64,000 bases of DNA from Lathyrus oleraceus (Eukaryota; Streptophyta; Magnoliopsida; Fabales; Fabaceae), in NCBI RefSeq assembly GCF_024323335.1, contig NC_066581.1:223329039-223393038 (forward strand), written 5' to 3'. How positions within the stretch are numbered: the first letter of the stretch is position 1; each line of letters begins with the position of its first letter. Of the stretch, positions 5,339 through 43,016 are shown piece by piece. The notes under the pieces were generated by a model that saw nothing but the letters and a program-made list of their open reading frames with translations, was not told the DNA's origin and made no database searches. The translations under genes were made by a program, and so were the position numbers.

Positions 5339-5677
5339 GATCTTTTGATGATTAGCTCTGGTATTGTACCAGTGCGTCAGCTTGTCTTTAAAGTAAATGA
5401 AGAGCAAAGAGTTAGACCACTGTATCAAGGGCTCGGAACCAAAACCTGCTTATGCATATGATGCATGCAATGCTCGTGCATATGATTTGTTTTTATATCA
5501 AAAGGAACTTTATAAAGATCTATTTGCAAATGTTTTGAAAATACTGAACTTTTTAAGACATATGTGGAATACTCATAGCAATATATTATTTGGAAACTTT
5601 TTACACCAAAGAAGTAGTACAGTCTCGGTAACCAAATACAATACAAGAGAAAAGGAGAATAAACATTCTATGGATCC

Positions 5678-8046: not shown

Positions 8047-8064
8047 TCCCCAGCGGAGTCGCCA
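8047..8064 (-). promoter_or_regulatory. Ogre primer binding site
   Basis: Sense TGGCGACTCCGCTGGGGA, six bases from the LTR end at 8071. This is the Ogre/Tat PBS type, reported in the literature as matching a tRNA-Arg 3' end. It fixes the strand and the LTR boundary. Confidence 0.9.
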
Positions 8065-8070
8065 CTTTTC

Positions 8071-10749
8071 TGTAGCGGGGTTTTCGTTACTTTTAGGTTT
8101 ATTGACTAAACCAAAAGTTAACATACAATTCGAGTCGCCACCGCACTTTTATTTGTCCAAAGGAAAGGCTAAAAAGCGAACAAAAGTCAAGTAGGAAGTT
8201 TTTCAAATCAAAAACTAATAAAAATGTCAGAGATCTAGGTAAGGGGGTTGGTTATGAAATGGGAAGGTTCTACGCACCCAAAACATCCTTAGTACTCTAA
8301 GGGAACCCTTTTTGCAAATATGTGTTGTAGGTTGGTATTTGTGAAAAGATTTGTGCAAAAGATTGGAAGGATGAGAAGAGAATAGATTATATTTAAAATT
8401 TTGTTGTTTGAATGGATGAACCCATTGCCTACGTACCATCACAAAGAAGGATCAAAACCTCGTAGTTTGGGGTAAAAATCTCCAAAATTGGTGAATTGAT
8501 TTGATCAAAATCCTTAAGGTCTTTTGTTATCAAAGGGAGAAAACTCAACCTAACCCAACAATCCACCGTGTGAGGAAGGCTTCAACATGCTAGTGAGAGG
8601 TTAACCCTATAATAAGCATGGAAGACTTATAATCCAATCACTAAGGATGAGGTGAGATTTACATCAACCACTATGATAACTCAAACCTATGACTAATGTT
8701 TTGAAAAAGGTTTTAACAAGGTGGCCATTGAAACTACAAATCAACTTGAAATGAGTTATATTTACAAGTTAAAGTTATTTACAAAATGAAGTCAAAGTTG
8801 GATAAATGTTTATTTACAATGAGTATTTATGAAGGTGGTTTTGAAAAGTCAAAGGCCTAAGGCCTAGGTTTCTAATTTAAAATAAAGTCAAAGTTTTGAA
8901 AATGATTTTTGGCTTGGTTAGAATGGGGAGAAGAAGAGAAGGGCTATTCCTAAAGCATACAAAGATAAGAGGGGAAAGATAACCCTTAGAGTTCCTTTTC
9001 TTGGAGTCATATGGAGAAGACTCAATATGATCCTTTCCTTTGGACTTAGCACACAAACAAGCAATCAATAAATTGAATTCAAGCTCCTAGGATCTCCATT
9101 TGGCTTGGCTCTTAACTTGGCTACTCATGACAATGGTCCTCTTTTCACAATCTTAAGATGGGATCCCTATCACACAAAAGCAAACCTCAAAAAGTTCATA
9201 ACACAATAAAGGGAATGGACAAAGAATAAGTTTGAGGAGAAGTCCTTTGAGATTAACTTTGAGTTTTAGCCTTCTAAAGGCATGAGGCCTAGTTGCTCTT
9301 TCAACAAACTTTGCATTCTAAAGGCATGACGCCTAGTTGCTCTTGAACTCCTTTAAGCATGGGTAAGTCCTAATTCTAAGTCCTTTCTCCTTTTGCATTT
9401 GGTTCACATCAAAACAAACACAAACACAACAAAATCGCAATATATTTATATACAATAATGGGCTCAAATGAGCAAAAGAAAAATGACATAAACATAAAAT
9501 ATGTACTCAAGTGAGCAAGAAATAAATGACATTAAAAGTAAATGGCAAGAAATTAAAAGCTCAAATTAAATTTAGTAGTTAGTAAGGTTATGTTAGCTTG
9601 CCATAAGACAATGTAGCGCTATGTTAAGCAATCGTAAGTGGACTAATGTAGTAGTCACACCTATCTGAGGTCGGTCAATAAGAATATAGGAAAAGAACAC
9701 AAGTTAGAGATCATGACTAGCAAGCCAAGCTCCATAAACTTGCCATGCCAAACAAAAGGGGAAGGGCCTTGTATTGACTTTTGGTTATTTGCTTGACCAA
9801 GAAGTAACATATCTTTAACACAAAATAACTCACTTGATCATGGATCAAGTTGAGTTTGGGTTGGATCAAAGAAGGTTAAACTTCTCATTTGTCAAGACCA
9901 ACCTCAAGACTTTAACTCACTGGCCATTGATGGAAAGAAAGGGATGAAGAGGAAAGGGAGGGGAAAGAAGTCAACAAACAATCCCAACTGACCAAGGGAT
10001 AACTCATCCTTGATCAAATTCATTCATCTTTCTAAGTGATGATCCATAAGGACTTTCAAACCACAAGATTCAATGCATTTGACCAAAGTTGAATCAATTC
10101 AACCTCAATCAACACCAAACGCAAGAGAAATGAAGATAACAAGTCAAAGAGTCAATGATATTTTTTGGTATTTTTTGAATTAAAATAAAATATAAATAAA
10201 AAATAAACAAATAAGGTTAAACCTCAAATTCAATTCAAAGCAACTTCAACAAGTCCAATTAAATTCTCATAGGTTCAACATAGTCAAACAAACTTTGACT
10301 AATTTTCTCATAAATTTTTGAAATCAGAAAGTAATTAAAAACAATTAAAAACAAACAAAAATTGCATAATATGAATTAAAATCTCAAGTAATCTCAAAAC
10401 AAACAAGAAATTGTTGAGACTATTTTTCATTGACTTATCATGATCCATAGATGCTATGGAAATATTTTTATATTTTTTAAAAGTCAGAAAGTATTTTAAA
10501 ATGAATTAAAACCATTAAAAACCAAGTAATTCATAAAAAATATCAAATGAAGTCATAAAAATAATTAAAAATCATAATATGAAACTATAATTTTCAAGAA
10601 AATTTTTGAGAATTGGTCTCATATTTTTCTGACTTCAAATGAATTTTTAATGAATTATTGAAAATGAAATGAATTAACAGAAAATAAATAGTAAATGAAA
10701 ATAAGCGAAAAAGCCACAGCCATCTGATCCGCATTCATCAATTGACGTG
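8071..10749 (-). mobile_element. Ogre 5' LTR, downstream (R/U5) part
   Basis: Sense 3' part of the minus-strand Ogre LTR, from the end at 8071 to the E1 insertion point at 10750. With 47771-49981 it gives an LTR of about 4.89 kb, a normal Ogre size. It is the inverted, diverged counterpart of the plus-strand LTR (1-4282). It contains the PBS-core copy GAGTCGCCA at 8132-8140 and the TACT/AGTA hairpin at 8287-8302. No gene is present. Confidence 0.92.
8287..8302 (-). other. Conserved AGTA-loop hairpin (Ogre)
   Basis: Perfect stem CCTTAG/CTAAGG around TACT (AGTA in sense), 216 bases from the LTR end. The stem differs from the E1/E2 version (CCGTAG/CTACGG) by matched changes on both sides. Confidence 0.8.
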
Positions 10750-12291: not shown

Positions 12292-12567
12292 AACACGTGG
12301 GCTGCGCCTAGCGAGCATGACAGCTCATGAACAAACCTTTGCTCCTTCAAGATTAACGTTTTGACTGACGAATAGACCCCTGTTGGAAGTAACTCAAGTC
12401 TTTCCCTTGTGTTGACTGATCATCTAAATAGAACCCACAAAGTGTCCTGGATGATGTTCAAGCTTTTGGAGCTAATCCCGATTGACATGATGAAATGCAA
12501 TGTATCTAATGTTAAATGACCTAAAAATGAATGCGTGAATAAGGAGGGCAAATTTTGGGGTGTTACA

Positions 12568-12580
12568 GCTGCCCTTTTTC
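12568..12580 (-). promoter_or_regulatory. E1 polypurine tract
   Basis: Sense GAAAAAGGGCAGC immediately before the 3' LTR start. This is the expected plus-strand primer for reverse transcription. Confidence 0.8.
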
Positions 12581-12720
12581 AGTCATCAGCTAACCCGAGC
12601 AGGATGAAAGCGAACAGCTTATCACACAAATAGGGTGAGTTGTGATTGAATACCAAAGACAGACCGAAAATTTGCGCTCCGAGAACACCATAAAAATGCT
12701 GAAATACACCGCGCTGTTTA

Positions 12721-13978
12721 TTTCTCTTCCGATCCTCTGGCTGAATCTGAATCAGTCTTTTGACTTAATCTGGAGTTTCGATCCTCTGGCTGATTCTATA
12801 CTCAATTTAGTCCTCTGGTTGGATGTTAATTTTGATCCTCGGGCTGGATACGGTTTCAATCTTCTGGCTAGATCTTCTTCGATCTTCTGGCTAGATCTCC
12901 TTTGTTTCGATTCTCTGGCTGAATCTATTTTCTTTGATTCTCTGGCTGAATCTACTTCGATCTTCTGGCTAGATCTGAATTGTTTCGATTCTCTGGCTGA
13001 ATCTATTTCCGGTCTTCGAGCTAGACCTGACTTCGATCTTCTGGCTATATCTTCTTCGATCTTCTGGCTAGATCTCCTTTGTTTTGATTCTCTGGCTGAA
13101 TCTATTTTCTTTGATTCTCTGGCTGAATCTACTTCGATCTTCTGGCTAGATCTGAATTGTTTCGATTCTCTGGCTGAATCTATTTCTGGTCTTCGGGTTA
13201 GACCTGACTTCGATCTTCGATTCTCTGGTTGAATCTATTCTCGGTCTTCGGGCTAGACCTAAGTACGATCTTCGATTCTCTGGCTGAATCTATTCTCGGT
13301 CTTCGGGCTAGACCTAACTACGATCTTCGATTCTCTGGCTGAATCTATTCTCGGTCTTCGGGCTAGACCTGACTACGATCTTCTGGCTAGATCTGGATTG
13401 TTTTGGTGATAAATTCCCATCATCAGGATCTCGTATCTGGGGCTTGCGCTGGTTGACCCTCTTTCGGAATCTACAATCTTCATGTTAGATATGCAGCTTT
13501 GAGAATATCCCACTTTTAGGCTTCGTACATATTCTTCATGCTAGAACATGTTGTAACGACTCTTCGATTAGACTTTGTTTTTAAATTGCGATCCGCGGGC
13601 TGGATCCTCTTGTAGGTTGATTTTCTGTTGAGCTGTCAATCTATTCCTCCAGCTGGCTTGCTGGGGAAATAACGCTCGTAGTCGATTCTCTGGCTGAATC
13701 TTCGAAATGACCCTCAGGCTGACTCTTGGGCAAAACGATTCTCAGGCTGAATCTTCAAAAATGACCCTCAGGCTGGATCACTGGAAAACGATTCTCAGGC
13801 TGAATCTTCAAAAATGACCCTCAGGCTGGATCACTGGAAAACGATTCTCAGGCTGAATCTTCAAAAATGACCCTCAGACTGGATCACTGGAAAACGATTC
13901 TCAGGCTGAATCTTCAAAAATGACCCTCAGGCTGGATCACTGGAAAACGATTCTCAGGCTGAATCTTCAAAAATGACC
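12721..13978 (-). repeat. Hairpin array in E1 3' UTR (main block)
   Basis: Dense array of 17-base units of the form 5-base stem, 7-base loop, 5-base stem. The loop is TCTGGCT, TCAGGCT or TCGGGCT on the plus strand (AGCCAGA, AGCCTGA, AGCCCGA in sense). Perfect examples are 12881-12897 (GATCT/AGATC), 12909-12925 (GATTC/GAATC) and 13011-13027 (GGTCT/AGACC). From about 13735 the units form a 53-base higher-order repeat of two hairpins, repeated about five times up to the E2 insertion. The array continues at 24799-24901. An apparent ORF at 12642-13232 is only the repeat read through. Confidence 0.9.
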
Positions 13979-15545
13979 TATAACACCCCAAAATTTGCCC
14001 TCCTCATTCATGCATTCATTTTTAGGTCATTTAACATTTCATATTGCATTTCATCATGTCAATCAGAATCAGATCCAAGAAACTTTATTTAAAAAATGAA
14101 GAAAAAAAAAACGAAAAAAAAAATTAAAAAAAATTTAATTAATTAAATAAATAAATAAAAGAAAAAATCTTGGACTTGGACCTCTCTCATTTGAGCCCAC
14201 AAAGCCATGAAAATCAGGTTATAAAAGAGGGAGAACAGACAGAAAAAGGAAGAGAAGCAAAATACTCTAAGGTTTCCTTGGAACAAAACCCTGGACAAAA
14301 CCTGAGGAGAAACCTAGACAGAGAGAGTGAGAATTAAGCTGCAGCAACCTCCAGGCAACTCTGAAAGGTTCATTCTGACTCACACACTTTCAGCTCAAGC
14401 AAACCCTAACATTGGTTTGCAAATCCAGCCGTGCCATTTGATTTCAACTGATCTCTCCAATCAGGTTTGCCCTATATCCATCATCTCTATGCTTTCAATT
14501 TGAATACTCTGAATGTATGAGGTATTATGGGTGAATTTGATACCCTTTTGATGCTTTTTGTGAGCTTTTTGTGAATTGAAAGGGCATGATTCATGTGGTT
14601 ACATTTTGATTTGGGGGCAACCCTTGATTACCCTTTTTTTTCTCTCTAACCTGTTTGTTGAGTTTTTTTGTGAGGCCTCACATGACGTTTGCAGGGATAA
14701 CTTGCGTGGTTTCCCACTTTATTTGTGGGATATCACCGGGAGGCTTATTCCGATTACCTGTACTGACTCACTCTCTTTGATGTGTTAGCCTGGAAGGATC
14801 TCTGGTTTCCATATTCCTTTATTTTTTCCTGCTTTTACTGCTTTCTTAGCTAGAAGACCTCGATAGGAGGCAATGTTTTGTGTGTTTACTTTATGCAGGT
14901 TCCTTCGTCAAGGACTGCCCTTTTTGCATGAGCATCCCTAAACCCTAAAACCCAAAGCAACACGTTAACTCCTTCTACTACAGGCGAGTAAGTCTCCAAA
15001 GGTCGAGCATCCGGCAGATTGCGCAGTAACGTCGTTCGTCCAAAACCCAATCCATAACCCCGTAGTTAGTCGAACTACGGCTTGCTTTAATTCTCAAGCC
15101 AGATGAGATACGTAGGCATAAGACGTGATGTCTTACCGAGCACAATTACCCTTAACCCCTAGGTAGCCGAGCTACGAAGACTCTTATTCTCATATTCAGA
15201 TGAGATACGTATGCAGTGGATGCGACATCCGTGCGAGTCATTTTCTTTTGACCCCCTTTTTTTAGTAAATAACACATTAGATAAACCCACACCCTTTAGA
15301 CAAGAACTACAAAAGTGGATCCCATAGAGTACTACGGATGCGTAGAGGTGCTAATACCTTCCCTTCGCATAATCGACTCTCGAACCCAAGATTTGGTTGC
15401 GAGACCCTGTCTTGTCCTTTCCTTTTTCCAGGTTTACTTCGAGCGTTTCCTTTCCCTCCTTTGGGATAAATAACGCACGGTGGAGACTCTCCTGTCTTTC
15501 TTCGCTGGTTGTTTTTTTTCGCATTCCATTTTTCAGGTTGCGACA
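13979..15545 (+). mobile_element. E2 5' LTR
   Basis: 1567 bases ending TTGCGACA. TATA box TATAAAAG at 14220-14227, so most of the LTR is transcribed leader. It holds paired-stem modules at 15060-15080 (CCGTAGTT/AACTACGG) and 15189-15204 (CTCAT/ATGAG). The PBS-core copy is mutated (TGGAGACTC, 15481-15489). It lacks the roughly 190 bases of U3 with CACGTG and CGCCTAGCG found in E1. Confidence 0.94.
14220..14227 (+). promoter_or_regulatory. TATA box, E2 5' LTR
   Basis: TATAAAAG just downstream of an A-rich tract; identical in the 3' LTR at 23471-23478. Confidence 0.8.
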
Positions 15546-15547
15546 GC

Positions 15548-15565
15548 TGGCGACTCTACTGGGGA
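15548..15565 (+). promoter_or_regulatory. E2 primer binding site
   Basis: TGGCGACTCTACTGGGGA, two bases after the LTR end. Same type as Ogre and E1, with A in place of G at position 11. Confidence 0.92.
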
Positions 15566-16667
15566 CCCGGTTTCCCTAAGTGAGTCCCTCCTAGCCTTTG
15601 TAGGTTGTTTGTTTATTGGGTGTTTATTCTTTTGTACAGTTATTTATCTTTCAGCATTTCCCTGCTTTATCGCATTGTGTACATATGACTACCGTATCTG
15701 CTGGTTCTGTTTGTGAGATGAGTTCTATACCCGAACTCGAGTGCACTTAGGATAGGAGAATGGCATAGTCTTGTTGACTTGTGTGGATTTATTCCTTAGC
15801 AAGTTGACTTGCAAGCCCATTCACTTGGTGGAGGTCATGTTGAGATCAATAATGTCACACAAGTAAGTTGTGGTTAGACATTACTTTTTCCAATATAGAC
15901 CTTAGAAGCCAAGGACCTTAGTTTACCAAACCCATCTTGGCCTATTCGTAGGACGTAGTGCGAAAGTCGTTGAAGTGTAAGATTTAATACGATTTTTACG
16001 CGATACTATACTCATAAGAGTCTCTCTTGAGAATATTTTTGGAATACGAGTAGTCGTTCCTCCGATAATATCCGAAAGATGGGATTATGACTATGGGAAC
16101 TTTTTGTAGAACATGTTTGGCAGGTCTAAACCTTAGTACACTCCCTTTGGGTGGTTCTTAACCTAAACTCCATGCTCGTGACTTGCAACAAACCCTTGAT
16201 TCATGGTCGATCCGTTCAGGTATCCTTAATATCAATGAAACTTGGGTGTTGATAAGGTGTAAACCATATTCCACCAAAAATGGATGGTTGATATTAAGGA
16301 TAACATGATCCATCCCATGACCTTAGTTTGGTGTGCTTTGCTTGATCCTTTTAGTTTCTCTCCAGGCAGTGCAACCTGACAGATGTTCAAGCGGATCCAG
16401 CAATTCTGATTGACATGCCATTGCATTGCATAACATCATCTGCATATTTGCATCCAACATCTCATGCTTATTCATTTGCAGGGTATTCCCTTTCAAAGGG
16501 GGCGCCTTAAAATCGAATAAGAAGTGCATCGCATACCATGCATACTAACCCTTGTTTGTTTTGAAGGTGTCACCGCAGTGTCTAATATTTGTTCCCTATT
16601 TCAGGCAGTTATTGGTCCCAAGCGAGTTCATAGGTACCCGACAAAGGAAAACCGTCCACGACTAGCA
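15566..16667 (+). other. E2 5' leader, no gene
   Basis: About 1.1 kb between PBS and the gag start. It is collinear with the E1 leader (45944-44877 then 31038-31008) and partly with the Ogre leader (7230-7860). No coding feature is recognised. E1 carries a solo LTR insertion at the point equivalent to about 16634 here. Confidence 0.8.
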
Positions 16668-19600
16668 ATGGACTAGATACAGAAAGAACTGGCTGATATG
16701 CGTGAAAGGATGGATCAGTTCATGACCTTGATGACTGGTATGGCAGCAGGCCAGGAGAAGCTGAGGGAATTGGTTGAGCAACCGAGGCCCGATCCAGAGG
16801 TGGAAATACCAAGTGCTGAGGGTAACCCTGGGAACGCTGGTAACCCTGTGAACAATGGTGACACGGGTAACGCGAGTGCTGATGGAAACCCGGGTAATGT
16901 TGGCAACACGGGGAATGTTGGGAATGGTATTGGTGGAAGATACAACGTGAATCAAGGGATTCGGATTAACGGGAACCCCGTTACTGAAGATTATCAGTAT
17001 GATCAATTTTCTTTGCACGACGAAACCCTCGAGACCACTCGCCGTATGGATGAGCTTGCTGAGAAGCTCAAATCTTTGGAGTCTCAAAATTCCTTAGGTT
17101 TTGATGTCACCAATCTTGGTCTAGTTCAAGGAGTAAGGATCCCTCACAAGTTCAAACCCCCTACTTTTGAGAAATACAACGGGACTTCTTGCCCACGCAC
17201 TCATCTCCAATCTTATTTGGGAAGGTTGGGAGCTCACACTGAAGATGAAAAGCTGTGGATGTACTATTTTGAAGACAGTTTAACTGGAGCTTCTCGTGAA
17301 TGGTATTCTCATTTGTCTTGTACTACCATCAAGAGCTGGAAAGACTTGGCAGAGGCTTTTATCAAACAATACCAATACAACTTGGACATGGCTCCGAATC
17401 GGACCTTGTTGCAAGGAATGTCTCGGACTGCCAAGGAAACCTTTAGAGAATATGCTCAGCGTTGGAGACAGATTGTTGCATCCGTCCAACCCCCTATGTC
17501 TGAAAGGGAGATGGCGGACATGTTCATGAACACTCTTCAAGGAAATTATATCGAGAGATTGGCTGCTTGCCCGTCAATCAGCTTCGCAGAGATAATGATT
17601 GCTGGAGAAAGGATCGAGAGTCTGTTGAAGATGGGCCGAATTCAAGACAACAGTGCTTCCAAATCATCAGTTCCCAAGAAACCGTTTGCTGGTAACGGTC
17701 ACCGAAGAAGAGAAGGTGAGACGAGCGTTGTGTATGCCGGCAGAGGCAGGGGCAGAGGACGCCCTAATTATTATCAAGATCAAGTGGCCGCAGTCACTAT
17801 TCCAACACCTGTTCCACAACCGCAGTATCATCCGCAACACCAACCCAGGTACAACAACCAACAACAAGGAGGTAATCCGGGTCAGCAGAGACACTATCAA
17901 CAACGTCCAAGGCAGGCGGACCGGGTCATTGAGCCAATCCCAATGGCTTATTATGTACTGCTTCCCAAGCTGATTGACATGAATCTGGTTACGTTAAGAA
18001 CTCTGGCCCCACCGGTCGATCCCAACAATCTGCCTAGAGGTTATGATGTCAACGCCAGATGTGCTTTTCACTCCAATGCACCTGGCCATACTATAGATAA
18101 TTGCAAGGCTCTACAGCTAAAGGTACAAGATTTGAGAGAAGCCCAGGCTATCAACTTTTCTCCAGTGCCTAATGTTATCCAAAACCCGATGCCAGCTCAC
18201 GGCGGGCAGAGGATTAATGCTGTTGATAATGGGGAAACTTTGAATTTGATTTCTGATGTGACTAAAGTGAAGACTTCGCTATCGGTGGTCAAAGACCGAC
18301 TCTTGAAAGGACAGATTTTCCCGGGCTGTGGGGAAGAGTGCAGAAATTGTCAAGCTGCCGAGAATGGATGTGACAGTTTGAGAAAGAGTATTCAGCAACT
18401 GATAGATGAAGGTTGTCTTCAGTTCGATCAGACTCGTCCAGAGAAGAATGATGTGTCGACAGTAACGTTTTATTTCACTCCTGAAGAAATATATGTTCCC
18501 GAGAGGCCCGCTCCGATGACAATATATTTCCCATAAAGTCCAGCACCAATTTACTCTGATAACCCTCAACCGACTTTGATTGGTCCGGTCACCATCACGG
18601 TACCAGGACCTGTTCCGATGATAAAGACAATGCTCTCCCGTGGCACTATGGGGCTGATATCTACTGCCAGGGGCAGAAAGTTAACGAAGAAGACATTAAC
18701 ATTGGTAGCTCCGTTGTAGACAATGTTGGAGGAATTGGTGGCTTCACTCGCAATGGACGCCTATTTGCACCATCAACATTGCGCACGAATGTTGAAGCTG
18801 AGGCAGCTGCCAAGGCTAAAGGAAAACAGGTATCCACCGAAGAGGTTACTACCGAGGAAGCTCCTCCTAAGACCGCATTCGAGAAGGAAGTGGATGAGTT
18901 TATGAGGATTATTCAGAAAAGAGACTACAAGGTAGGCGACCAGCTAAATCAGACACCCTCAAAGATCTCCATTCTCTCACTATTGATGTGCTCTGAGGCA
19001 TACAGAGCAGCCTTGTTGAAAGTACTGAATATGGCCTATGTTCCACCAGAGATAACTGTTAACCAGCTGGAGTCGGTAGTTTCAAATGTACACACTAGCC
19101 ATGCGCTAGGTTTCACCGATTATGACCTAACATGTGAGGGCAGGAATCACAACAAAGCCTTGCATATCACAATGGAATGCAAAGGGACGGTGCTTTCCCA
19201 TGTTTTGGTTGATACAGGCTCTTCTCTGAACGTTCTTCCAAAGAAAGCCTTAACGAAGTTGGATTGCGATGACATCATCCCGAAGCCAAGTAATTTAGTT
19301 GTGAGGGCTTTTGTTGGCTCTAAGCGAGCTGTCTGTGGCGAAGTTGAGTTGCCAGTTAAGATTGGACCTCAGGTATTCAAAAGTACCTTTTATGTGATGG
19401 ATATCCAGCCTACCTACAACTGTCTGCTAGGTAGGCCCTAGATTTATGTTGCCGGTGTTGTTACTTCTACCCTCCACCAGAAGCTCAAATATGAACTAGA
19501 AGGTCAGATCGTCACTGTCTGTGGTGAAGAGGATATTTTTGTTAGCCACCTGTCTACATTTAAGTATGTGGAGATGGATGGCGAGAGGCATGAGATGCTG

Positions 19601-19985
19601 TGTCAGGGGCTTCGAAACTATAAACATCAGTGAGGTCGTGCCCGAAGTTGTGTTTTCACCTGAGTCTGAGAAGGTCGGGACTTCTATCTCTTCATACAAG
19701 CAAGTTGTTGAAGTGGTTAAGGCTGGTAATGCCCAAGGTTGGGGCAAATTTGTGGAGCCAATCATAAAAGAAGACAAGTTTGGATTGGGGTATACTCTGG
19801 GGTCTCATAAGAATGAAGTCGGTACTTTCTCCAGCGGGGTTTTGGTTTCTCCTCGTATCGTCAATGCTGCAGAGGAAGACAAGGCTAACAGCGACTGTGA
19901 CTTAGATAGCTGGATTCGCCCGTGTGTCCCAGGAGAAAAGCTCGACAATTGGTCGTCTGAAAAGTCGTCCGGTTTACTCTACTGA
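16668..19985 (+). pseudogene. gag-pro: E2 gag-protease, disrupted
   Basis: Gag coat and aspartic protease of a Tat element. By comparison with E1 the start is the ATG at 16668, with a stop two codons later (16674-16676); an open frame resumes at 16698. An N-terminal coiled coil and a low-complexity Gly/Asn/Pro region (about 16820-16930) lead into the Gag core (PHKFKPPTFEKYNG, FREYAQRWRQIV), an Arg/Gly/Gln-rich RNA-binding region and a zinc-finger-like CAFHSNAPGHTIDNC. The protease active site DTGSS is near 19211-19225. Damage: a stop at 18534-18536, a frameshift near 18620, a stop at 19439-19441 and a one-base gain near 19607. Confidence 0.9.
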
Positions 19986-20257
19986 AAGAGTAATTTTTAT
20001 TGTTTTCCTTTTATCACATGCATAATAAAGTCTTACACTTTGACCAAGGTGTAATGACTCATCTGTAGGGCCATCCATTTAGTTACATTTCGCAATTATT
20101 TTCATCATCAATAAAGGACAACTTTTGCAAACAATTTTGTGTTCTCTTTCTTTCAATTATTTTTACTTTTACAAAAACGGAAATGTTTCTTTTTCATGTT
20201 TCTTTTTCATTTTTCTTTCCAAAAACACCTTGTAAAATTGATCACCCGGATCTCACT
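19986..20257 (+). other. E2 spacer between protease and RT, possible Ogre-type intron
   Basis: AT- and T-rich stretch with no coding similarity, sitting between pro and the pre-RT region and shared with E1 (27439-27731). Ogre elements are known to carry an intron here, which is why I suggest it. I could not fix splice sites by eye. Confidence 0.5.
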
Positions 20258-20985
20258 GCTAACGACACTACTATGGCCAAGTATGACTTCGACAATCCTA
20301 TCTATCAAGCCGAAGAAGGGGCTGAGGAAGATTGTGAATTGCCTGAGGAGTTAGCCAGGTTATTGAAACAGGAGGAGCGAGTTATTACACCTTATTAGCT
20401 TGTATATGGCGTGGAAGCAGTTCTTCCGGTTGAAGTCGAAATTCCTTCTTTGCGGGTCCTGATGGATGTTAAGCTGGACGAAACAGAATGGGTCCGTTCT
20501 CGATACAATCAGCTGAGCCTAGTTGAGGAAAAGAGACTAGCAGCTATATGCCATGGCCAACTAAATCAGAGACGAATGAAGAGGGCATTTGATCAGAAAG
20601 TGCGCCCTCGGGAGTATCAAGTCGGTGAACTGGTACTCAAAAGAATTCTTCCTCCCAACACAGATCGCAGGGGAAAATGGACACCGAACTATGAGGGTCC
20701 ATATATGGTTAAAAGAGTTTTTCTCTGACGGAGCTTTGATGCTAACAACCATGGAGGGCTAAGACTTCCCATCCCCTGTCAACTCAGACGCAGCTAAAAA
20801 ATACTTCGCATAAAATAGACCCGCTGGATAGTAAAAAGAAGGAACAAAGAGGTTCGGGCAAAAATTAGGGATATAAAAATTAAAATGTACACCCGGTGAG
20901 TCCAAAACCCGAAAGGGCGGCTCAGGCAAAAAAGGGTATCCCGGTGGATTGAAAACCCAAAAGGGCGATCCACGCAAAAGTTAGG
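20258..20985 (+). pseudogene. pol: E2 pol remnant: pre-RT segment joined to integrase C terminus
   Basis: Starts with the Tat pre-RT segment (HPDLTANDTTMAKYDFDNP to ERVITPY) and jumps at about 20395 to the integrase C-terminal part (LVYGVEAVLPVEVEIPS, then KWTPNYEGPY of the GPY/F-like region). RT, both RNase H domains and the integrase catalytic core are gone. The sequence matches E1 exactly through ACACCTTAT and then diverges, consistent with a deletion at short homology. A stop sits at 20396-20398 and a one-base gain near 20725 breaks the tail. The tail encodes short Lys/Gly-rich repeats. Confidence 0.88.
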
Positions 20986-21534
20986 GAATAAGCGAATGAC
21001 TGCAACCTGAGTTCACCTGTGTTCCATCATCGTTTCATTCAATCCGGCAATCTTCGAAGGTAAAAAATCGACTAATCATCCACTTCAGAAAGCAAGATGA
21101 GCAGAGCGTCTTGAGGACATACGAGCCATAGCAGAGTCGAAACTCAGTGGGACCCCGTTTCCACATTGCCATTAGGATAATTTTCTTTTGTTCAATTTAT
21201 AGCGATCAACTCTTTCTAGGGATCAGCTTCCTGACATACTCGCCTATTCCTGGCGCAAATCTTTCAACCAATAAAAGTCGAATAATTCAGTTAAAAAGCC
21301 TCTTTATTTTTCATTTATCAGTTTGTCTGCAAAAAATGTCTGAATTCTTGATGAAGCATATTGCATCTGAATATAATGGTGGCTGTTGCAGATGACTTGC
21401 GCAGGAAAACAATCAAAATTTCTTTGAATGTGTTTAATCCTGGACGGTGAATTCAAACCGAGTAATCCCCCGGGGTATACGTGTATTTTTTTGTTACAGG
21501 TCACAGGAACTGGATGCCAAGCCGTGAATCCCCA
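20986..21534 (+). other. E2 proximal 3' UTR, no recognised feature
   Basis: Non-coding, collinear with E1 25510-26030 on the other strand. I see no repeats or genes in it. Confidence 0.7.
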
Positions 21535-22020
21535 TCCCCAAGCGGTTGACAAAGTCTATCCTCAGCAGAGCCTATCCCCAGTAGAGTTGACAGTATCCAG
21601 ACTGTATATCCCCAGCAGAATTGTCAGTACCAGACTGTATCTTCCCGGCAACAGCGGAGTAGTTGCATACCCAACAGACAAGAGGGTGGTGTTCCTAGTG
21701 TTCATCTCATTCCCCCTGCAGATTATTTTTAACAGATTTGTTTTAATCCCCAGCCTGAGGACGATTAGCAAGTTCATATCCCCAGCAAAGGTCGATTCCT
21801 ACGACATTTCCCCAGGAAGTGCTTTCTTCACAGACTCTCCTCGCAGAGCCTCTCCAAGCAAAGTTTCCATAGTTGATACTTCCCCAGCAAGGTCAACTTT
21901 TCAAAAAAGGCCGATTTATTTTCGGTGGCTCCCCGGTCCCGGCAGACAGATCGTTCCCCACAGAGCATTCAAGGATTGATACAGCGATCCGCTCCCTACC
22001 AGAGTTGCTTCCCCAAACAG
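21535..22020 (+). repeat. Array of PBS-complement-like units in E2 3' UTR
   Basis: Repeated TCCCCAGC-type cores. The best copies extend to nearly the whole complement of the PBS: 21575-21592 (TCCCCAGTAGAGTTGACA, 16 of 18 bases) and 21609-21626 (TCCCCAGCAGAATTGTCA, 15 of 18 against the E1-type PBS complement). Shorter copies start at 21559, 21779 and 21881. The sense RNA would therefore carry several segments able to pair with its own PBS. Confidence 0.75.
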
Positions 22021-22150
22021 ATTTCTTTTTTTCTTTTGCACCATGCATAACATTTGCATTTGCATTTGCATGCATATCAAACATACACATAAGCTGATAA
22101 ACAGGTTCTTCAAAGCAGACTGAAGAATTGCTTTACAACCAGAGTCCCGA

Positions 22151-23069
22151 GATCCAGCCAGAGGATCAAGTGTGAGTGATCCAGCCTGAGGGTCATTTTT
22201 GAAGATTCAGCCTGAGAATCGTTTTCCAGTGGTCCAGCCTGAGGGTCATTTTTGAAGATTCAGCCTGAGAATCGTTTTCCAGTGATCCAGCCTGAGGGTC
22301 ATTTTTGAAGATTCAGCCTGAGAATCATTTTCCAGTGATCCAGCCTGAGGGTCATTTTTGAAGATTCAGCCTGAGAATCGTTTTCCCAAGAGTCAGCCTA
22401 AGGTTCGTTTTGAAGATTCAGCCAGAGAATCGACTACGAGTGTTATTTCCCCAGCAAGCCAACTGGAGGAATATATTGATAGCTCAACAGAAAATCAACC
22501 TACAAGAGGATCCAGCCAGCGGATCGCATTTAAAAAACAAAGTCTAATCGAAGAGTCGTTATAACATGTTCTAGCCTGAAGAATATGTACGAAGGCCAAG
22601 AGTGGGATATTCTCGAAGCTGCATATCTAACATGAAGATTGGGCGCAGATTTCGAAAGAGAGTCAACCAGTGCCTGCCTCAGATGCGAGATCCTGATGAT
22701 GGGAATTTATCATCAAATCAATCCAGATCTAGCCAGAAGATCGAAGTCAGGTCTAGCCCGAAGACCGGAAATAGATTCAGCCAGAGAATCGAAAGAATTC
22801 AGATCTAGTCAGAAGATCAAAGTAGATTCAGCCAGAGAATCAAAGAAAATAGATTCAGCCAGAGAATCGAAACAAAGGAGATCTAGCCAGAAGATCGAAG
22901 AAGATCTAGCCAGAAGATCGAAGAAGATCTAGCCAGAAGATTGAAATCGTATCCAGCCCAAGAATCAAAATTAACATCCAACCAGAGGACTAAATTGAGT
23001 ATAGATTCAGCCAGAGGATCGAAACTCCAGATTAAGTCAGAAGACTGATTCAGATTCAGCCAGAGGATC
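22151..23069 (+). repeat. Hairpin array in E2 3' UTR
   Basis: About 25 units of 17 bases: 5-base stem, loop AGCC(A/T/C)GA, 5-base stem. Stems vary in pairs: GATCC/GGATC (22151), GATTC/GAATC (22204), GATCT/AGATC (22726), GGTCT/AGACC (22750). Imperfect stems such as GATCC/GGGTC (22178), GATTC/GGATC (23004), GATCT/AGATT (22926) and GTTCT/AGAAT (22568) still pair through G-U wobbles in sense RNA. From 22204 to 22379 units are arranged in a 53-base two-hairpin repeat. Confidence 0.92.
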
Positions 23070-23219
23070 GGAAGAGAAATAAACATCGCAGTGTATTTCA
23101 GCATTCTTGTGGTGTTCTCGGAGCGCAAATTTTTGGTCTGTCTTTGGTATTCAATCACAGCTCACCCTGTTTGTCTGATAAGCTGTTCGCTTTCATCCTG
23201 CTCGGGTTAGCTGATGACT

Positions 23220-23232
23220 GAATAGGGGCAGC
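23220..23232 (+). promoter_or_regulatory. E2 polypurine tract
   Basis: GAATAGGGGCAGC directly before the 3' LTR. Confidence 0.75.
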
Positions 23233-24798
23233 TGTAACACCCCAAAATTTGCACTCCTCATTCATGCATTCATTTTTAGGTCATTTAACATTTCATATTA
23301 CATTTCATCATGTCAATCAGAATCAGATCCAAGAAACTTTATTTAAAAAACGAAAAAAAATTAAAAAAAAATTAAAAAAAATATTAAATTTAATTAAATA
23401 AATAAATACAAGAAAAAATCTTGGACTTTGACCTCTCTCATTTGAGCCCACAAAGCCATGAAAATCAGGTTATAAAAGCGAGAGAACAGACAGAAAAAGG
23501 AAGAGAAGCAAAATACTCTGAGGTTTCCTTGGAACAAAATCCTGGACAAAACCTGAGGAGAAACCTAGACAGAGAGAGTGAGAATTAAGCTGCAGCAACC
23601 TCCAGGAAACTCTGAAAGTTACATTCTGACTCACACACTTTCAGCTCAAGCAAACCCTAACATTGGTTTGCAAATCCAGTCGTGCCATTTGATTTCAACC
23701 GATCTCTCCAATCAGGTTTGCCCTATATCCATCATCTCTATGCTTTCAATTTGAATACTCTGAATGTATGAGGTAATATGGGTGAATTTGATACCCTTTT
23801 GATGCTTTTTGTGAGCTTTTTGTGAATTGAAAGGGCATGATTCATGTGGTTAAATTTTGATTTGGGGGAAACCCTTGATTACCCTTTTTTTTTCTCTCTA
23901 ACTTGTTTGTTGAGTTTCTTTGTGAGGGCTCACATGACGTTTGCAGGGATAACTTGCGTGGTTTCCCACTTTATTTGTGGCATATCACCTGGAGGCTTAT
24001 TCCGATTACCTGTACTGACTCACTCTCTTTGATGGTGTTAGCCTGGAAGGATCTCTGGTTTCCTTATTCCTTTAGTTTTTCCTGCTTTTACTGCTTTCTT
24101 AGCTACAAGACCTCGATAGGAGGCAATGTTTTGTGTGTTTACTTTATGCAGGTTCCTTCGTCAAGGACTGCCCTTTTTGCATGAGCATCCCTAAACCCTA
24201 AAACCCAAAGCAACACGTTAACTCCTTCTACTACAGACGAGTAAGTCTCCAAAGGTCGAGCATCTGGCAGATTGCGCAGTAACGTCGTTCGTCCAAAACC
24301 CAATCTATAACCCCGTAGTTAGCCGAACTACGGCTTGCTCTGATTCTCAAGCCAGATGAGATACGTAGGCATAAGACGCGATGTCTTACCGAGCACAATT
24401 ACCCTTAACCCCTAGGCAGCCGAGCTACGAAGACTCTGATTCTCATATTCAGATGAGATATGTATGCAGTGGATGCGACATCCGTGCGAGTCATTTTCTT
24501 TTGACCCCCCTTTTTTAGTAAATAACACATTAGATAAACCCACACCCTTTAGACAAGAACTACAAAAGTGGATCCCGTAGAGTACTACGGATGCGTAGAG
24601 GTGCTAATACCTTCCCTTCGCATAATCCACTCCTGAACCCAAGATTTGGTTGCGAGACCCTGTCTTGTCCTTTCCTTTTTCCAGGTTTACTTCGAGCGTT
24701 TCCTTTCCCTCCTTTGGGATAATCAACGCACGGTGGCGACTCTCTTGTCTTTCTTCGCCGTTTGTTTTTTTTCGCATTCCATTTTTCAGGTTGCGACA
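23233..24798 (+). mobile_element. E2 3' LTR
   Basis: 1566 bases from TGTAACACCCC to TTGCGACA, with TSD TGACC following. TATA box at 23471-23478. It retains the intact PBS-core copy (24734-24742) and a perfect AGTA hairpin (24575-24590), both damaged in the 5' LTR. Confidence 0.95.
24575..24590 (+). other. Conserved AGTA-loop hairpin (E2)
   Basis: CCGTAG, AGTA, CTACGG; perfect 6-bp stem ending 208 bases from the LTR end. Confidence 0.8.
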
Positions 24799-24901
24799 TG
24801 ACCCTCAGGCTGGATCACTGGAAAAGGACTCTCAGGCTGAATCTTCAAAGTGACCCTCAGGCTGGACCACTCACACTTGATCCTCTGGCTGGATCTCATG
24901 A
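24799..24901 (-). repeat. Hairpin array of E1, remainder right of E2
   Basis: Continuation of the 12721-13978 array after the E2 insertion, beginning with the TSD copy TGACC. It includes TCAGGCT- and TCTGGCT-loop units. 24902-25015 has no recognised feature. Confidence 0.85.
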
Positions 24902-25015
24902 CTCTGGTTGTAAAGCAATTCTTCAGTCTGCTTTGAAGGACCTGTTTATCAGCTTATGTGTATGTCTGATATGATATGCATGCAAATGCAAATGTTATGC
25001 ATGGTGTAAAAAGAA

Positions 25016-25509
25016 ATCTGCTTGGGGAAGCAAACTCCGGTAGGGAACTGATCGCTGTATCAATCCTTGAATGCTCTGTAGGGAATGATCCGTCTGCCGG
25101 GACCGATGAGCCACCGAAAATAAATCGGCTTCTCTCAGGGAAGTTGACTTTGCTGGGAGAGTATCAACCATGAGCACTTTGCTTGGCGACTTTACTGGGG
25201 AAATGTCGCGGGAATCGACCTTTGCTGGGGATATGAACTTGCTAATCGTCCTCAGGCTGGGGATTAAAACAAATCTATTAAAAAATAATCTGCTGGGGGA
25301 AGAGATGAATACTAGGACCACCACCCTCTCATTTGTTGGGTATGCAACTACTCCGTTGTTGCCGGGAAGATACAGTCTGGCACTGTCGACTCTGTTGGGG
25401 ATATACAGTCTGGATACTGTCAACTCTACTGGGGAACCTGCTCTGCAGAGGAGAGGCTTTGTCAACCGCTTGGGGGTGAGGATTCATGACTTGGCATCCG
25501 GTTCCTGTT
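25016..25509 (-). repeat. Array of PBS-complement-like units in E1 3' UTR
   Basis: On the plus strand, which is antisense to E1, PBS-like segments recur: 25184-25201 (TGGCGACTTTACTGGGGA, 16 of 18 to the E1 PBS and 17 of 18 to the E2 PBS), 25384-25401 (TGTCGACTCTGTTGGGGA, 16 of 18 to the E1 PBS), 25418-25435 (TGTCAACTCTACTGGGGA, 15 of 18) and weaker copies at 25144 and 25214. E1 sense RNA therefore contains their complements, as in E2. Confidence 0.8.
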
Positions 25510-26027
25510 ACCTATAACCAAAAAATACACGTATGCCCCGGGGAATTACTCGGTTTGAATTCATCGTTCGGGATTAAGCACATTCAAAGCAATTTTAAAT
25601 GTTTTCCTGTGCAAATCATCTGCAAAAGCCACCATTATGTTCATATGCAATATGCTTCATCAAGAATTCAGACATTTTTTACAAACAAACTGATAACTGA
25701 AAAATAATGAGGCTTTTTAACTGAACATTCGACTTTTATTGGTCGAAAAATTTGTGCCAGGAATAGGTGAGTGCATCAGGAAGCAGATCCCTGGAAAGAG
25801 GCGATCGCTATAAATCGAACAAAAGAAAATTATCCTAATGGCAATGTGGAAACGGGGTCCCACTGAGTTTCGACTCTGCTATGGCGCGTATGTCCTCAAG
25901 ACGCTCTGCTCATCTTGCTTTCTGAAGTGGATGGTTAGACGATCTTTAACCTTCGAAGATTGCCGGATTGAATTAAACGGTGATATAACACAGGTGAACT
26001 CAGGTTGCAGTCATTCGCTTATTCCCT
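25510..26027 (-). other. E1 proximal 3' UTR, no recognised feature
   Basis: Non-coding counterpart of E2 20986-21534. Nothing else is seen. Confidence 0.7.
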
Positions 26028-26588
26028 AACTTTTGCGTGGACCGCCCTTTTGGGTTTTTGATCCACCGGGATACCCTTTTTTTCCTGAGCCGCCCTTTTG
26101 GGTTTTCGACTCACCGGGTGTACATTTTTTTTTTATATCCCTAATTTTTGCCCGAACCTCTTCATTCCTCTTTTTTTTTGTTCGCCGGGATGTCCCTTTT
26201 TTGCCTGGACCATTCTTTTTACTTGTCCAGCAGGTCAATTTATGCGAAGTGTTTTTTAACTGCGTCTGAGTTGACAGGGGACGGGAAGTCTTCGCCATTC
26301 CATGGTTGTTAGCATCAGAGCTCTGCCAGAGAAAACTCTTTTAACCACATACGGACCCTCGTAGTTCGGTGTCCATTTGCCGATGTGATCTGTGTCGGGA
26401 GGAAGAATTCTTTTGAGTACCAATTCACCGACTTGATACTCCCGAGGGCGCACTTTCTGATCAAATGCTCTCTTCATCCGTCTCCGATATAGTTGGCCAT
26501 GGCATATAGCTGCTAGTCTCTTTTCCTCAACTAGGCTCAGCTGATTGTATCGAGAACGGACCCATTCTGCTTCGTCCGGCTTCATTGT
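26028..26588 (-). pseudogene. pol: E1 integrase C-terminal remnant
   Basis: Reads EAEWVRSRYNQLSLVEEKR, then LVLKRILPPDT, GKWTPNYEGPYVVKRVFSG and a basic tail with a repeated KTQKGG pattern. This is the integrase C-terminal region (GPY/F-like) without the DDE catalytic core. It is joined at about 26588 to RNase H sequence by an internal deletion, with AAGC at the joint, and the two parts are out of frame. Confidence 0.87.
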
Positions 26589-27438
26589 TGGTGCAGGGAA
26601 AAGTTATTCTGGCACAAAATCGCATATGAACCCCCTCCGGCGTGATCAACACTGCACCAACTCCGCGACCATTGACGTTGACCGCCCCATCAAACATCAT
26701 AATCCATTTGGATTCAGGGTCAGGCCCCTCCTCCGGGAGTGGTTCCTCGCAATCTTTCGATTTGAGAAACATGATGTCCTCATCAGGAAAGTCGAACCTC
26801 ATAGGTTGGTAATCATCAATCGGTTGCTCGACAAGATAGTCTGACAAGACACTTCCTTTGATGGCTTCTTGTGAAGTGTATTGGATGTCATACTCTGTCA
26901 GCATCATTTGCCACCTAGCAACCCTTTCGGTAAATGCTGGCTTTTCAAAAATATACTTGACTTGATCTATCTTTGATATCAATAGAGTCGTGTGAGTCAA
27001 CATATACTGTCTTAGTCGGCGAGCAGCCCATGCCAAAGTGCGGCAAGTTTTCTCAAGCAGTGAGTATCTTTGTTCAAAGTCGGTAAACTTTTTGCTAAGG
27101 TAGTATATTGCATGCTCTTTTCGACCTGACTCGTCATGCTGACCGAGCACACAACCCATTGACCTTTCTAACACAGTCAAGTACATAATCAACGGTCTTT
27201 TCCTCTCGGCCTGTACACTGGCCCCGATCTTGATCTCTTTCTTGTCGTCCTCGATACCAATGTTGACGGTCTCAATCACTTCCTGATAAGGTGTAATAGC
27301 TCGGTCCTCCTGTTTCAAGAACCTGGCTAACTCCTCAGGCCATTCACAATCTTCCTCAGCCCCTTCTTCGGCTTTATAGATAGGATTGTCGAAGTCATAC
27401 TTGGCCATAGCAGTGTCATTAGCAGTGAGATCCGGGTG
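26589..27438 (-). pseudogene. pol: E1 pol remnant: pre-RT, Ty3-type RNase H and part of second RNase H
   Basis: In sense: the pre-RT segment (YDFDNPIYKAEEGAEED), then a jump near 27210 from KIGASVQ to the RNase H domain (RPLIMYLTVLERSMGCVLG, KEHAIYYLSKKF). Part of the second, additional RNase H typical of Tat elements follows (MMFDGAVNVNGRGVGAVLI). It stops at CTNNEA where the second deletion begins. All RT motifs, including YVDD, are absent. The element could move only with pol supplied by an autonomous relative. Confidence 0.87.
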
Positions 27439-27731
27439 ATCAGTTTTACGAGGTGTTTTTTGGAAAGAAAAAACGAAAAAGAAACATGAAAAAGAAACAT
27501 TGTCATTTTTGTAAAAGTAAAAATAATTGAAAGAAAGAGAACACAAAATTGTTTGCAAAAGCTGTCCTTTATTGATGATGAAAATAATTGCGAAATGTAA
27601 CTAAATGGATGGCCCTACAGATGAGTCATTACACCTTGGTCAAAGTGTAAGACTTTATTATGCATGTAATAAAAGGAAAACAATAAAAATTACTCCTTCA
27701 GTAGAGTAAACCGGACGACTTTTTCGGACGA
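27439..27731 (-). other. E1 spacer between protease and RT, possible Ogre-type intron
   Basis: AT-rich non-coding counterpart of E2 19986-20257. Splice sites not resolved. Confidence 0.5.
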
Positions 27732-33003: not shown

Positions 33004-34033
33004 CTTGCTCCTAATCAAGCTGTTAATCATGTTTTAGCATTTGGCCAAGTGTATTAGGGAAAACAAGGTGTAAATGCAAATTTGACAATTCACCCTTATG
33101 CATGGAAAACCAATGGAATAGTGCATGTTTTTTGCTTGAATTTCACTTAAAAGATCATTTGGAAGCCAATGCAAGTGGTAGAATGTGAAAACAATGCTTC
33201 ATTTTCAAATTTGAATTTTCCCTCCAAAATTTAGGTGAAATTTCAAATGATTATGTGATGGAAATGCATGGCATGTGATTCATGATTTGGATAGTAGAGA
33301 TCACAAGAAAAATGTTGCAAAAAGAGCCATCTCATTTGGACATTTGGTTAAGAAGTTATGCATGTTTGAAGTTCAATGTTCACTTGACCATGATTGATCC
33401 ATATATCTTCAACCATACATGAGAAATTCATGATCTTGGACTTTTTGGAAATGAGAGAGCAAGATCTACAACTTTCATGTTGGACAAAATTTCATTTGAA
33501 GCTTGCTTGATGATGTAATATTGAGGAGAAAACCTTTCCATTTTTGGCAGTTTCAAATTACAGGTCACTTACTATTTTTGGAAAGTTTTGATCTGACCTC
33601 AAATTCTTCATTGTTGATGTTTGAAATGTCAAATGAGAATTGTATGGACATGAATGAGGACTCTCTAACCATCTCCCACCTTCAAATCCATGATTGAACT
33701 GACAGTTGACTTTGGTTGACTTTTCAGGGTTTCAGATGAATTGATCATTGACTGATGAGCTTTGAACATCCAACCTTTGGCCAAACCACTTCAAAATGAT
33801 CCTTAGGTCTGTGAGAAAATTCTTTACTTTGAATTAGTTTTGAATGATGGCAAATTGTGTGATCATCATCCAAATGTTGGCTGTGCATTACATTACATGA
33901 TACATTTGTGTTTTTATTGTGCTTTTTATCCCATTCTATTGTTGCATGACTGTACATAAAGACCTACATTGATACATCTCTTAAAATAACTCATAAAATC
34001 CATTTTGTGTCAGTATGCATCAACACATAAGCC

Positions 34034-34350
34034 TATGCATCGATCCATACAGCATGTGGTAAATCACAAAACTTTTTTGTTCAGTATGCATCGATGCATA
34101 CGAGTCATGTATCGACACATGAACAGGCAAAATGCTCTATGGATCGATCCATACGAGCCTTGCATCGATGCATGATCAGTTGAAACACCCTATGTATCAA
34201 TGCATACGTATTATGCATCGATCCATGTTAGTGGAAATGTCATATGCATCAATACACACGAATTATGCATCGATCCATGCTTAATTCAATTCACCAAAAA
34301 CTCACTTATCTTACAGTATGCATCGATGCATACTCTCATGTATCAATGCA
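34034..34350 (+). repeat. ATGCATCGATGCAT palindrome array in SIRE U3
   Basis: About a dozen palindromic units. Perfect palindromes: GTATGCATCGATGCATAC at 34084-34101 and 34316-34333, TATGGATCGATCCATA at 34138-34153, and TGCATCGATGCA at 34161-34172. Half-matched forms (TATGCATCGATCCATA) are at 34034-34049 and 34212-34226. The array ends about 40 bases before the TATA box. The same array is in the 3' LTR (43241-43557). Confidence 0.9.
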
Positions 34351-34390
34351 TAAGTCTGTTTTATGTTCTAACAGTTTCTGTTTTTCAGCA

Positions 34391-34398
34391 TATATAAG
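34391..34398 (+). promoter_or_regulatory. TATA box, SIRE 5' LTR
   Basis: TATATAAG, identical in the 3' LTR at 43598-43605. Confidence 0.8.
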
Positions 34399-35501
34399 AG
34401 ATGTTGTGACAGCAGTGCAGTTCACGAATTCTTAGAGGGAAAAACAATTGAACACAAGATCAAAGCAGTGTGTAGCAGTAATTGTTTTAGAGCATTCAGA
34501 AACCTAAAAGAGACTTCATCTTCTTTATCTTCTCAATCGCTTTTCTTCAAGAACATCAACACATAATCATTCTTGTTCTTTGGATTAAAGGATCAACGAG
34601 ATAACGTTCAGTGGAACGATCAAGGATCTAGCTGAGGTTTTCAGTGGTACGATCGAGGATCTAGCTGAGTTGAAGTTTGAAGAGGGTTTCGAGGAAAAAC
34701 CAACTGGTTTGTCCTTCAAGAAATGGAGTGTTCTTGAGGGTTTGTTAGTCACGTTTGCAGAACAGATTCAGCCGCAGCGTTGCGTTTGGAGATCGGGGGA
34801 TTTCGCAAGCAGGTCGTGGAACCGGTGAATTGTTTGCAATTTCGTGCAGGGAATTCTTGATCGTGCTCAGATCATGGAGGTTTCATACAAGAAGAAGTTC
34901 TTGGAATTTAGAATTCTGTCTTTGTATCATAACCTTGTAACAACGAATTCGGCATAATTGATAATCAAAGTTCTCAATTTCATTTGAAATTGAGAGGGAG
35001 ACGTACACACACACGAGGACGACGTGGGGAACTTCCTTACCAAATCTCTGCGTATCGTATTCTTCCCTTACTCCTCTTTACGTTTCAAGCAATTTTCGCA
35101 ATTTCAGTTAGTGTGTTGTGACTGTACCTTTTGCAAGACAGCAGTGGCAAGAAAACTTCTTTAACTAAACTCCACTGTTGTTCATCATTGATTACATACA
35201 CACCAACTGTTTGACAAAATTGTTCGCTAGGTTTTATTCATTGGAAATAGACTTTAATGATAAGTGCATTCAATTAGCTAAAATTCTGGTGTTAATAGCT
35301 TTTGTCATTCTTATTCAAATCCAGCATCAAACTCGCGTGTCCGGTTTTTTAGTAGCGGTTCAGAATAGACGGAAGTCGATTCGGGACTGATATTTTCCGC
35401 CAACTTTAAAAACTCTGATAAAACTTTAAATCCGTTCAATTTTAAAGAGGTGATCTATTCACCCCCCCCCCTCTCGATCACTAGCCACACCGTTTAACAA
35501 G

Positions 35502-35513
35502 TGGTATCAGAGC
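35502..35513 (+). promoter_or_regulatory. SIRE primer binding site (initiator Met tRNA type)
   Basis: TGGTATCAGAGC two bases after the LTR end, the usual plant Copia PBS complementary to the initiator methionine tRNA 3' end. Confidence 0.95.
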
Positions 35514-35550
35514 GCCGGTTCGCTGGTGCTCTGTGGCTGCCTGTAACAGT

Positions 35551-43014: not shown

Positions 43015-43016
43015 TT

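Follow-up and report, generated by a model that had tools for sequence, protein, structure and literature searches.

Tandem hairpin units in the 3' UTR of two related LTR retrotransposons: covarying stems, a constrained loop, and a possible role as an RNA recognition platform

The window, by which we mean the whole stretch of 64,000 nucleotides of Lathyrus oleraceus DNA that was analyzed, has the appearance of plant DNA with nested LTR retrotransposons. The hairpin array described here lies in the 3' UTR of one of these, E2 (boundaries set by eye), which is inserted in the homologous array of a related minus-strand element, E1. The main features of the two elements are as follows.

13979..24798, plus strand: E2, the array-bearing element
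13974-13978 and 24799-24803: 5-bp target duplication of E2, TGACC
13979-15545, plus strand: E2 5' LTR
15548..15565, plus strand: E2 primer binding site (PBS), TGGCGACTCTACTGGGGA
16677..18536, plus strand: E2 gag open frame (Pfam Retrotrans_gag, 4.9e-12)
18563-19441, plus strand: E2 protease-like frame following gag (Asp_protease_2, 1.2e-4, under the Pfam cutoff)
23233-24798, plus strand: E2 3' LTR
~12567, minus strand: start of the E1 3' LTR

Two LTRs, a target duplication, and a PBS identify E2 as an LTR retrotransposon. The open-frame list contains no pol frame of at least 150 aa for E2, and the element is probably Ty3/gypsy-like and non-autonomous, with gag and protease kept but without an intact pol. 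The LTRs of E2 are 96.2% identical (K2P, 0.0387), and those of E1, whose ends are approximate, have a K2P of 0.0393. Between E1 and E2, gag has a K2P of 0.062; if LTR divergence is used as a clock, this suggests that ~0.039 of the 0.062 arose after insertion. The 3' UTR directly upstream of the array is more divergent between the two elements than gag is (K2P, 0.109). The E2 insertion point (13974-13978/24799-24803) is the end of a hairpin unit in the E1 array; going by the title of one study, LTR retrotransposons reportedly often target palindromes.

In E1, the frame at 26527-27600 has an RT_RNaseH match (1.5e-21) and no second RNase H match at an E value of ≤1, the stretch behind RT_RNaseH being short. 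According to PMC6317226, the Tat lineage is marked by a further RNase H domain (aRH), which lies between RH and INT. A Tat-lineage trait that is present, and that is common in the lineage but not universal, is tandem repeats between the coding region and the 3' LTR. The PBS of Ogre elements is of the tRNA-Arg type. In one published account, tRNA-Arg is among the primer tRNAs of non-chromoviruses.

Several other features lie elsewhere in the window. Inverted repeats of 94% identity (arms at 3565-3955 and 8396-8786) delimit a stretch at 3565-8786, which contains a minus-strand open frame between the arms (5678-6952; DUF7745, 7e-119) and a PBS-complement-like site at 8047. At 33807-43313, near-identical 300-base repeats (at 33807 and 43014) enclose long open frames; the frames at 35485-37329 and 37302-40463 look copia-like by eye, and a 514-aa frame at 41091-42635 has no Pfam match. 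A 448-aa minus-strand frame at 61066-62412 matches Pfam Transposase_32, a putative plant transposon protein.

A preliminary description made from the letters of the sequence placed the E2 array at 22151-23069 on the plus strand and gave it a 17-base unit with a 5+7+5 layout and the loop AGCC(A/T/C)GA. We reproduced all of these, and we found the four perfect stems that it had listed (GATTC/GAATC, GATCC/GGATC, GATCT/AGATC, and GGTCT/AGACC) as well as its five wobble stems (GATCC/GGGTC, GATTC/GGATC, GGTCC/GGGTC, GATCT/AGATT, and GTTCT/AGAAT). The parts of the arrays in the two elements are as follows.

22151..22431, plus strand: E2 sub-array 1, 11 units, mostly GATCC..GGGTC alternating with GATTC..GAATC, in a 53-base higher-order repeat
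22432..22725, plus strand: E2, mostly unique stretch with two isolated units (22509, GATCC/GGATC; 22568, GTTCT/AGAAT)
22726..23069, plus strand: E2 sub-array 2, 14 units of the GATCT, GATTC, and GGTCT types
24799..24895, minus strand: E1 array, 5' part in the sense direction, severed by the E2 insertion
12731..13978, minus strand: E1 array, remainder in the sense direction

In both elements, the array ends 163 bases before the 3' LTR. We selected units by allowing at most one mismatch to the loop AGCC(A/T/C)GA and at most two mismatches between each arm and any known arm; because the arms were judged singly, pairing had no say in membership. This gives 69 loop-defined 17-base units, 27 in E2 and 42 in E1, among which there are 27 distinct 17-mers and 18 distinct stems. 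In the rest of the window (43 kb on each of two strands), the same detector finds 8 units. Its background per 43-kb strand is 77 and 43 at two or fewer loop mismatches, 3 and 5 at one or fewer, and 0 at none. Because the background at two loop mismatches is high, 6 of 75 units were left out of the main set of 69 on this account; they were put back in a sensitivity run.

The last 6 units of E2 sub-array 2 are imperfect, 3 of them by G-U only and 3 with A-C or other mismatches. The arrays contain higher-order repeats of 53, 55, and 177 bases. We rejected the array as a coding sequence, since the 53- and 55-base repeats break frame. E1 sub-array 2 is open both ways (160 aa sense and 197 aa antisense), its sense frame having no Pfam match, and no frame of at least 150 aa is found for the E2 array in the open-frame list. 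A comparison of both strands of 12500-25500 with Rfam (4,227 families) gave no matches at an E value of ≤1.

Outside the window, two protein searches returned 13 array-derived proteins (5 plus 8) from JGI/ENA contigs of 603 to 1,931 bases, which we used for unit order only. As judged by eye, and as far as each one reaches, they preserve the succession of unit types seen at the array's 3' end, and this extends to the mismatched units of the edge. Exact-pattern scans matched 10, 2, and 0 stretches in viral contigs and 3 in genome contigs; by our unit pattern, none of these 15 loci has more than one unit, and we read the matches as chance. With the E1 gag-protease frame as the query, no relative was found among the viral contigs.

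Nearly all units can pair. Of the 69 units, 61 are fully paired (24 of 27 in E2 and 37 of 42 in E1), and 42 are paired by Watson-Crick pairs throughout (15 in E2 and 27 in E1); E2 has a further 9 that are fully paired with G-U and 3 that have A-C and/or noncanonical pairs. The 345 pairs of the 69 units are 307 Watson-Crick, 26 G-U, 4 A-C, and 8 other, and the 135 pairs of the distinct 17-mers are 110 Watson-Crick, 15 G-U, 3 A-C, and 7 other. When arms were swapped among the 27 distinct 17-mers, there were 109.2 ± 2.3 standard pairs, compared with 125 observed; for the 18 distinct stems, the values were 71.3 and 80, and in neither case did any of 2,000 swaps reach the observed count.

We also aligned 32 units, picked for variant coverage, over 25 columns; 31 belong to the set of 69, and the other has a loop with two mismatches. 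In this alignment, 92.5% of cells are paired versus 81.3% after shuffling, and 22 cells are double changed versus 7.6 (0 of 500 shuffles for each). Double changes are present at 4 of the 5 stem pairs, pairing drops to 21 to 57% when the register is slid, and RNAalifold predicts the same 5-pair stem. Coarser measures give 4 pairs with a double change versus 2.7 (22 of 500) and 9 further pair types versus 7.8 (48 of 500).

The preliminary description also held that the imperfect units are all rescued by G-U pairs. This is false for 3 of the 27 E2 units, TATCC/GAATC (22950), CATCC/GGACT (22975), and GATTA/AGACT (23030); the E1 units not rescued in this way are GAGTC/GGGTC, GATAT/AGATC, TATCC/GGATC, CATCC/GGACT, and GAATC/GGATC. 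Mismatched units at the 3' edge are common to E1 and E2, so perfect pairing is not demanded of every unit. On the main tree of units, a Watson-Crick pair turns into G-U in 8 stem events and into A-C in 3; a further 3 are double changes made directly, 3 lead from G-U back to Watson-Crick, and the remainder involve other mismatches. Pair 4 follows the path U-A to U-G to C-G at two places in this tree, in keeping with a stem that stays paired as it changes. The ratio of G-U to A-C events is 8-9 to 3 over 200 tie-breaks, and 8 to 3 corresponds to a P value of 0.11. The G-U share of cells on this tree, 15 of 18, is attained by 68 of the 994 runs of the null. When the same units are placed on a second tree, the ratio is 7 to 3 (P = 0.17), and when the stem columns are left out of tree building, it is 11 to 3 (P = 0.03). 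Bootstrapping of three unit sets yields medians of 8-12 to 3. The G-U excess had been put forward as a sign of selection on the sense RNA. Its direction is as claimed, while on the main tree it falls short of significance, so that the wobble argument is a tilt toward sense RNA and does not establish it. In one array-derived protein, P0003, two units have C facing A at pair 5 (read by eye); this counts against A-C avoidance, and it is biased evidence because that position had to be free of a stop codon.

The loop behaves differently from the stem and the flanks. The six fixed positions of the loop carry 2 changes common to E1 and E2 and 8 private to one element copy. The flanks have 45 shared and 18 private changes (loop versus flank, P = 0.003), the shared ones partly reflecting differing linkers, and the stems have ~22 shared and ~9 private (rounded means; loop versus stem, P = 0.008); these counts come from two arrays and a weakly supported unit tree, and the events are not fully independent. 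By a second tree method, there are 3 shared and 9 private loop changes, and looser unit sets give 5 and 9 and 5 and 14. For the three unit sets, the P values are 0.002, 0.010, and 0.004 for loop versus flank and 0.035, 0.008, and 0.031 for loop versus stem, and loop versus flank is below 0.05 in 57, 47, and 50 of 60 bootstrap trees. Among the private changes in the loop, 7 of 8 are C-to-T or G-to-A transitions, which matches the decay expected in silent DNA. The units in this comparison were chosen by their loop, and a search by arms only recovers nearly the same set: the spacer is 7 bases long at 64 sites, and 62 of these bear an AGCC-type loop. At other spacers, this search found no sites at 3, 5, 6, or 8 to 11 bases, 3 sites at 4, and 5 sites at 12, and those at 4 and 12 join arms to linker sequence. 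The constraint on the loop and the nearly fixed seven-base spacer provide a new argument alongside covariation. The sequence and length of the loop are kept while the stem is free yet paired, and this is the pattern of a recognized stem-loop.

Conservation of stems between E1 and E2 (4 of 255 sites in stems and 7 of 180 in loops versus 30 of 480 in linkers; stems versus linkers, P = 0.003) was dropped as a sign of selection. The signal vanishes against dense-array linkers (8 of 192, P = 0.14), and the LTR divergence (0.039 each) suggests that much of the E1-E2 difference in gag arose after insertion.

A mutational process rather than selection might also produce paired, covarying arms. The main rival explanation is of this kind: when template switching occurs inside a short inverted repeat, during either reverse transcription or DNA replication, one arm is rewritten from its partner, and stems would stay matched even if the hairpin had no function. 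This process is known for RNA hairpins, where it produces multibase compensatory changes, and stable loop motifs are enriched, 7-base loops slightly (9.57% versus 7.56%; PMC8794818), so that some preference as to the loop is compatible with it. G-U intermediates fit it too, as do the weak support from folding (see below) and the three tree events in which one Watson-Crick pair is replaced directly by another. The three direct replacements are all on branches common to E1 and E2; their absence from private branches counts against template switching, although stem changes on such branches are few. Three loop complements were compared with the sense strand of E2 and gave 0 matches, so that no inverted loop is present there; this speaks weakly against template switching, as only ~2 would be expected by a rough estimate. 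The main difficulty is the loop, since template switching would not be expected to leave it nearly constant on shared branches and changing on private ones. The hairpins described in PMC8794818, which are in rRNA genes, resemble the present units in their compensatory stem changes and differ from them in that a loop constraint in active copies would not be predicted there. Overall, we consider a purely mutational origin rather unlikely.

A second alternative calls for hardly any selection: each of a few stem types would have had one or two origins and then spread by duplication, and the apparent covariation would go back to a few old events, with everything else inherited. The small number of distinct stems and units among the 69 fits this, as do the higher-order repeats. 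We compared the units with a self-made, R-scape-like null in which relatedness and branch lengths are kept and the substitutions of each branch of the unit tree are redistributed over columns, either uniformly or by column rates. Extra Watson-Crick pair types are unremarkable under this null (216 and 81 of 500 runs), as duplication would have it. In contrast, the observed percentage of paired cells is reached in 0 of 500 runs under both schemes, the summed covariation is reached in 1 (uniform) and 0 (column rates), and the number of fully paired distinct stems is reached in 1 and 0. Taken singly, pair 5 is the only one that exceeds every run; for pairs 2 and 4 the counts are 31 to 65 of 500, and pairs 1 and 3 are unremarkable. 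Furthermore, 11 double changes are required on the tree built without stem columns. The covariation noted in the preliminary description also stands out against a phylogeny-aware null, mainly through pair 5, and these results support the conclusion that it exceeds what relatedness accounts for. We regard duplication of a few old stems as quite unlikely to be the whole explanation.

Folding energy gives little support and alone would not pick out the array or the sense strand. Single-unit hairpins have mean energies of -2.5 (E1) and -1.9 (E2) kcal/mol in the sense direction and are slightly more stable in the antisense direction (-2.9 and -2.4 kcal/mol). Against 30 shuffles each, the whole-array fold has z scores of -0.19 (E2) and -1.97 (E1) in the sense direction and -1.10 and -1.24 in the antisense direction. 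When pairing is restricted to a span of ≤60 bases, the mean probability of unit stems is 0.46 (E2) and 0.50 (E1) for the sense strand, with 13 of 27 and 21 of 42 units above 0.5; for the antisense strand, the means are 0.16 and 0.14, with 3 of 27 and 5 of 42 units above 0.5. In the global ensemble, the mean pair probability exceeds 0.5 in 8 of 27 (E2) and 21 of 42 (E1) units. It is improbable that the nearly self-complementary units instead zip together pairs of genomic RNAs, or remote segments of a single molecule, as a dimerization or compaction element: several units in the E2 minimum-energy fold do pair with other units (via both arms and inner pairs), and Ty1 Gag promotes dimerization and cyclization of Ty1 RNA (PMC8396678), but arm-to-arm pairing needs neither a fixed 7-base spacer nor a constrained loop, and differing unit types would be expected to pair badly. 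Kissing of the loop with another part of E2 was rejected, as there is no match to the three loop complements.

Upstream of the array, both elements carry recurrent motifs of a different kind.

20876..22150, plus strand: E2 3' UTR with tRNA-3'-end-like (PBS-complementary) motifs in the sense direction, 9 matches (one pair overlaps)
24896..26134, minus strand: the same region of E1, with tRNA-3'-end-like motifs in the sense direction, 14 matches (some overlap)

The motif is the complement of the element's own PBS, TCCCCAG(T/C)AGAGTCGCCA, with matches counted at seven or fewer mismatches and the best having 2. In 200 shuffles, the mean number of matches was 2.1 (maximum, 8) for E2 and 2.2 (maximum, 7) for E1. 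In the opposite orientation, the motif is not found in either region. Within one RNA, the motif could base-pair with the PBS, or it could act as a competitor of the primer. Local alignments between this motif and the hairpin unit (P = 0.017 to 0.35 in nine comparisons) are only suggestive of a derivation of the unit from the motif.

Tandem repeats are already known from the 3' UTRs of Tat/Ogre elements, as is their expansion into satellites (PMC7004042 and PMC11963269; Macas 2009, as cited there). In PMC7004042, illegitimate recombination or strand transfer is given as the source of such repeats, which are regarded as raw material for satellites. The present arrays resemble the 3' UTR repeats of the Tat-lineage elements Ogre and Retand in lying between the coding region and the 3' LTR as tandem arrays of varying length (PMC7004042 and PMC11963269). 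They differ from those descriptions in their structure: the main texts of the two papers contain "hairpin" and "secondary structure" 0 times, and "palindrom" occurs 0 times in the main text of PMC7004042 and 2 times in that of PMC11963269, both in a cited title. In a literature search that covered few subscription papers, no title or abstract opening reports an array of covarying hairpins at a comparable position. The packaging and dimerization signals of Ty1 and retroviruses are, in the accounts sampled, structured RNAs preferred by Gag, which is the job proposed below for the array. These signals consist of few stem-loops, mostly near the 5' end. Unlike them, the present arrays repeat a single small stem-loop dozens of times close to the 3' end, and their binding by Gag is a proposal.

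Based on the covariation, the loop constraint, and the spacer, we favor the interpretation that the array is a series of 27 (E2) to 42 (E1) copies of a protein-recognized RNA stem-loop and forms a multivalent platform, with Gag the first candidate to bind it; we put its probability at roughly 0.47, a little under even. The 5-pair stem would be needed as a structure and be free in sequence, and the 7-nucleotide loop, AGCC(N)GA, would be the sequence-specific part. Repeated in the 3' UTR of the genomic RNA, the unit would make a multivalent landing site for a protein, whose binding may mark or cluster the RNA for particle assembly. Copy number would shift through duplication of the higher-order units. 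We infer that RNA rather than DNA is recognized and that a protein does the binding; a DNA-level reader of the same dyad could also be at work. The element's own Gag is the natural first candidate because E2 appears to keep a gag frame without an intact pol, and a host RNA-binding protein would be the second. The preliminary description had likewise suggested a platform for Gag or a host protein, or a packaging signal, as putative roles.

A wider version of the platform interpretation is that the hypervariable 3' UTR is a polymer of one protein-recognized stem-loop, that satellite-seeding repeats began as selected RNA-binding platforms, and that the neighboring primer-tRNA-like stretch can pair with the element's own PBS; taken together, these propositions are doubtful. 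If the unit is a selected RNA stem-loop, the 3' UTR repeats of Tat/Ogre elements would gain a function, and this would explain why the array has been retained in a copy that lacks an intact pol.
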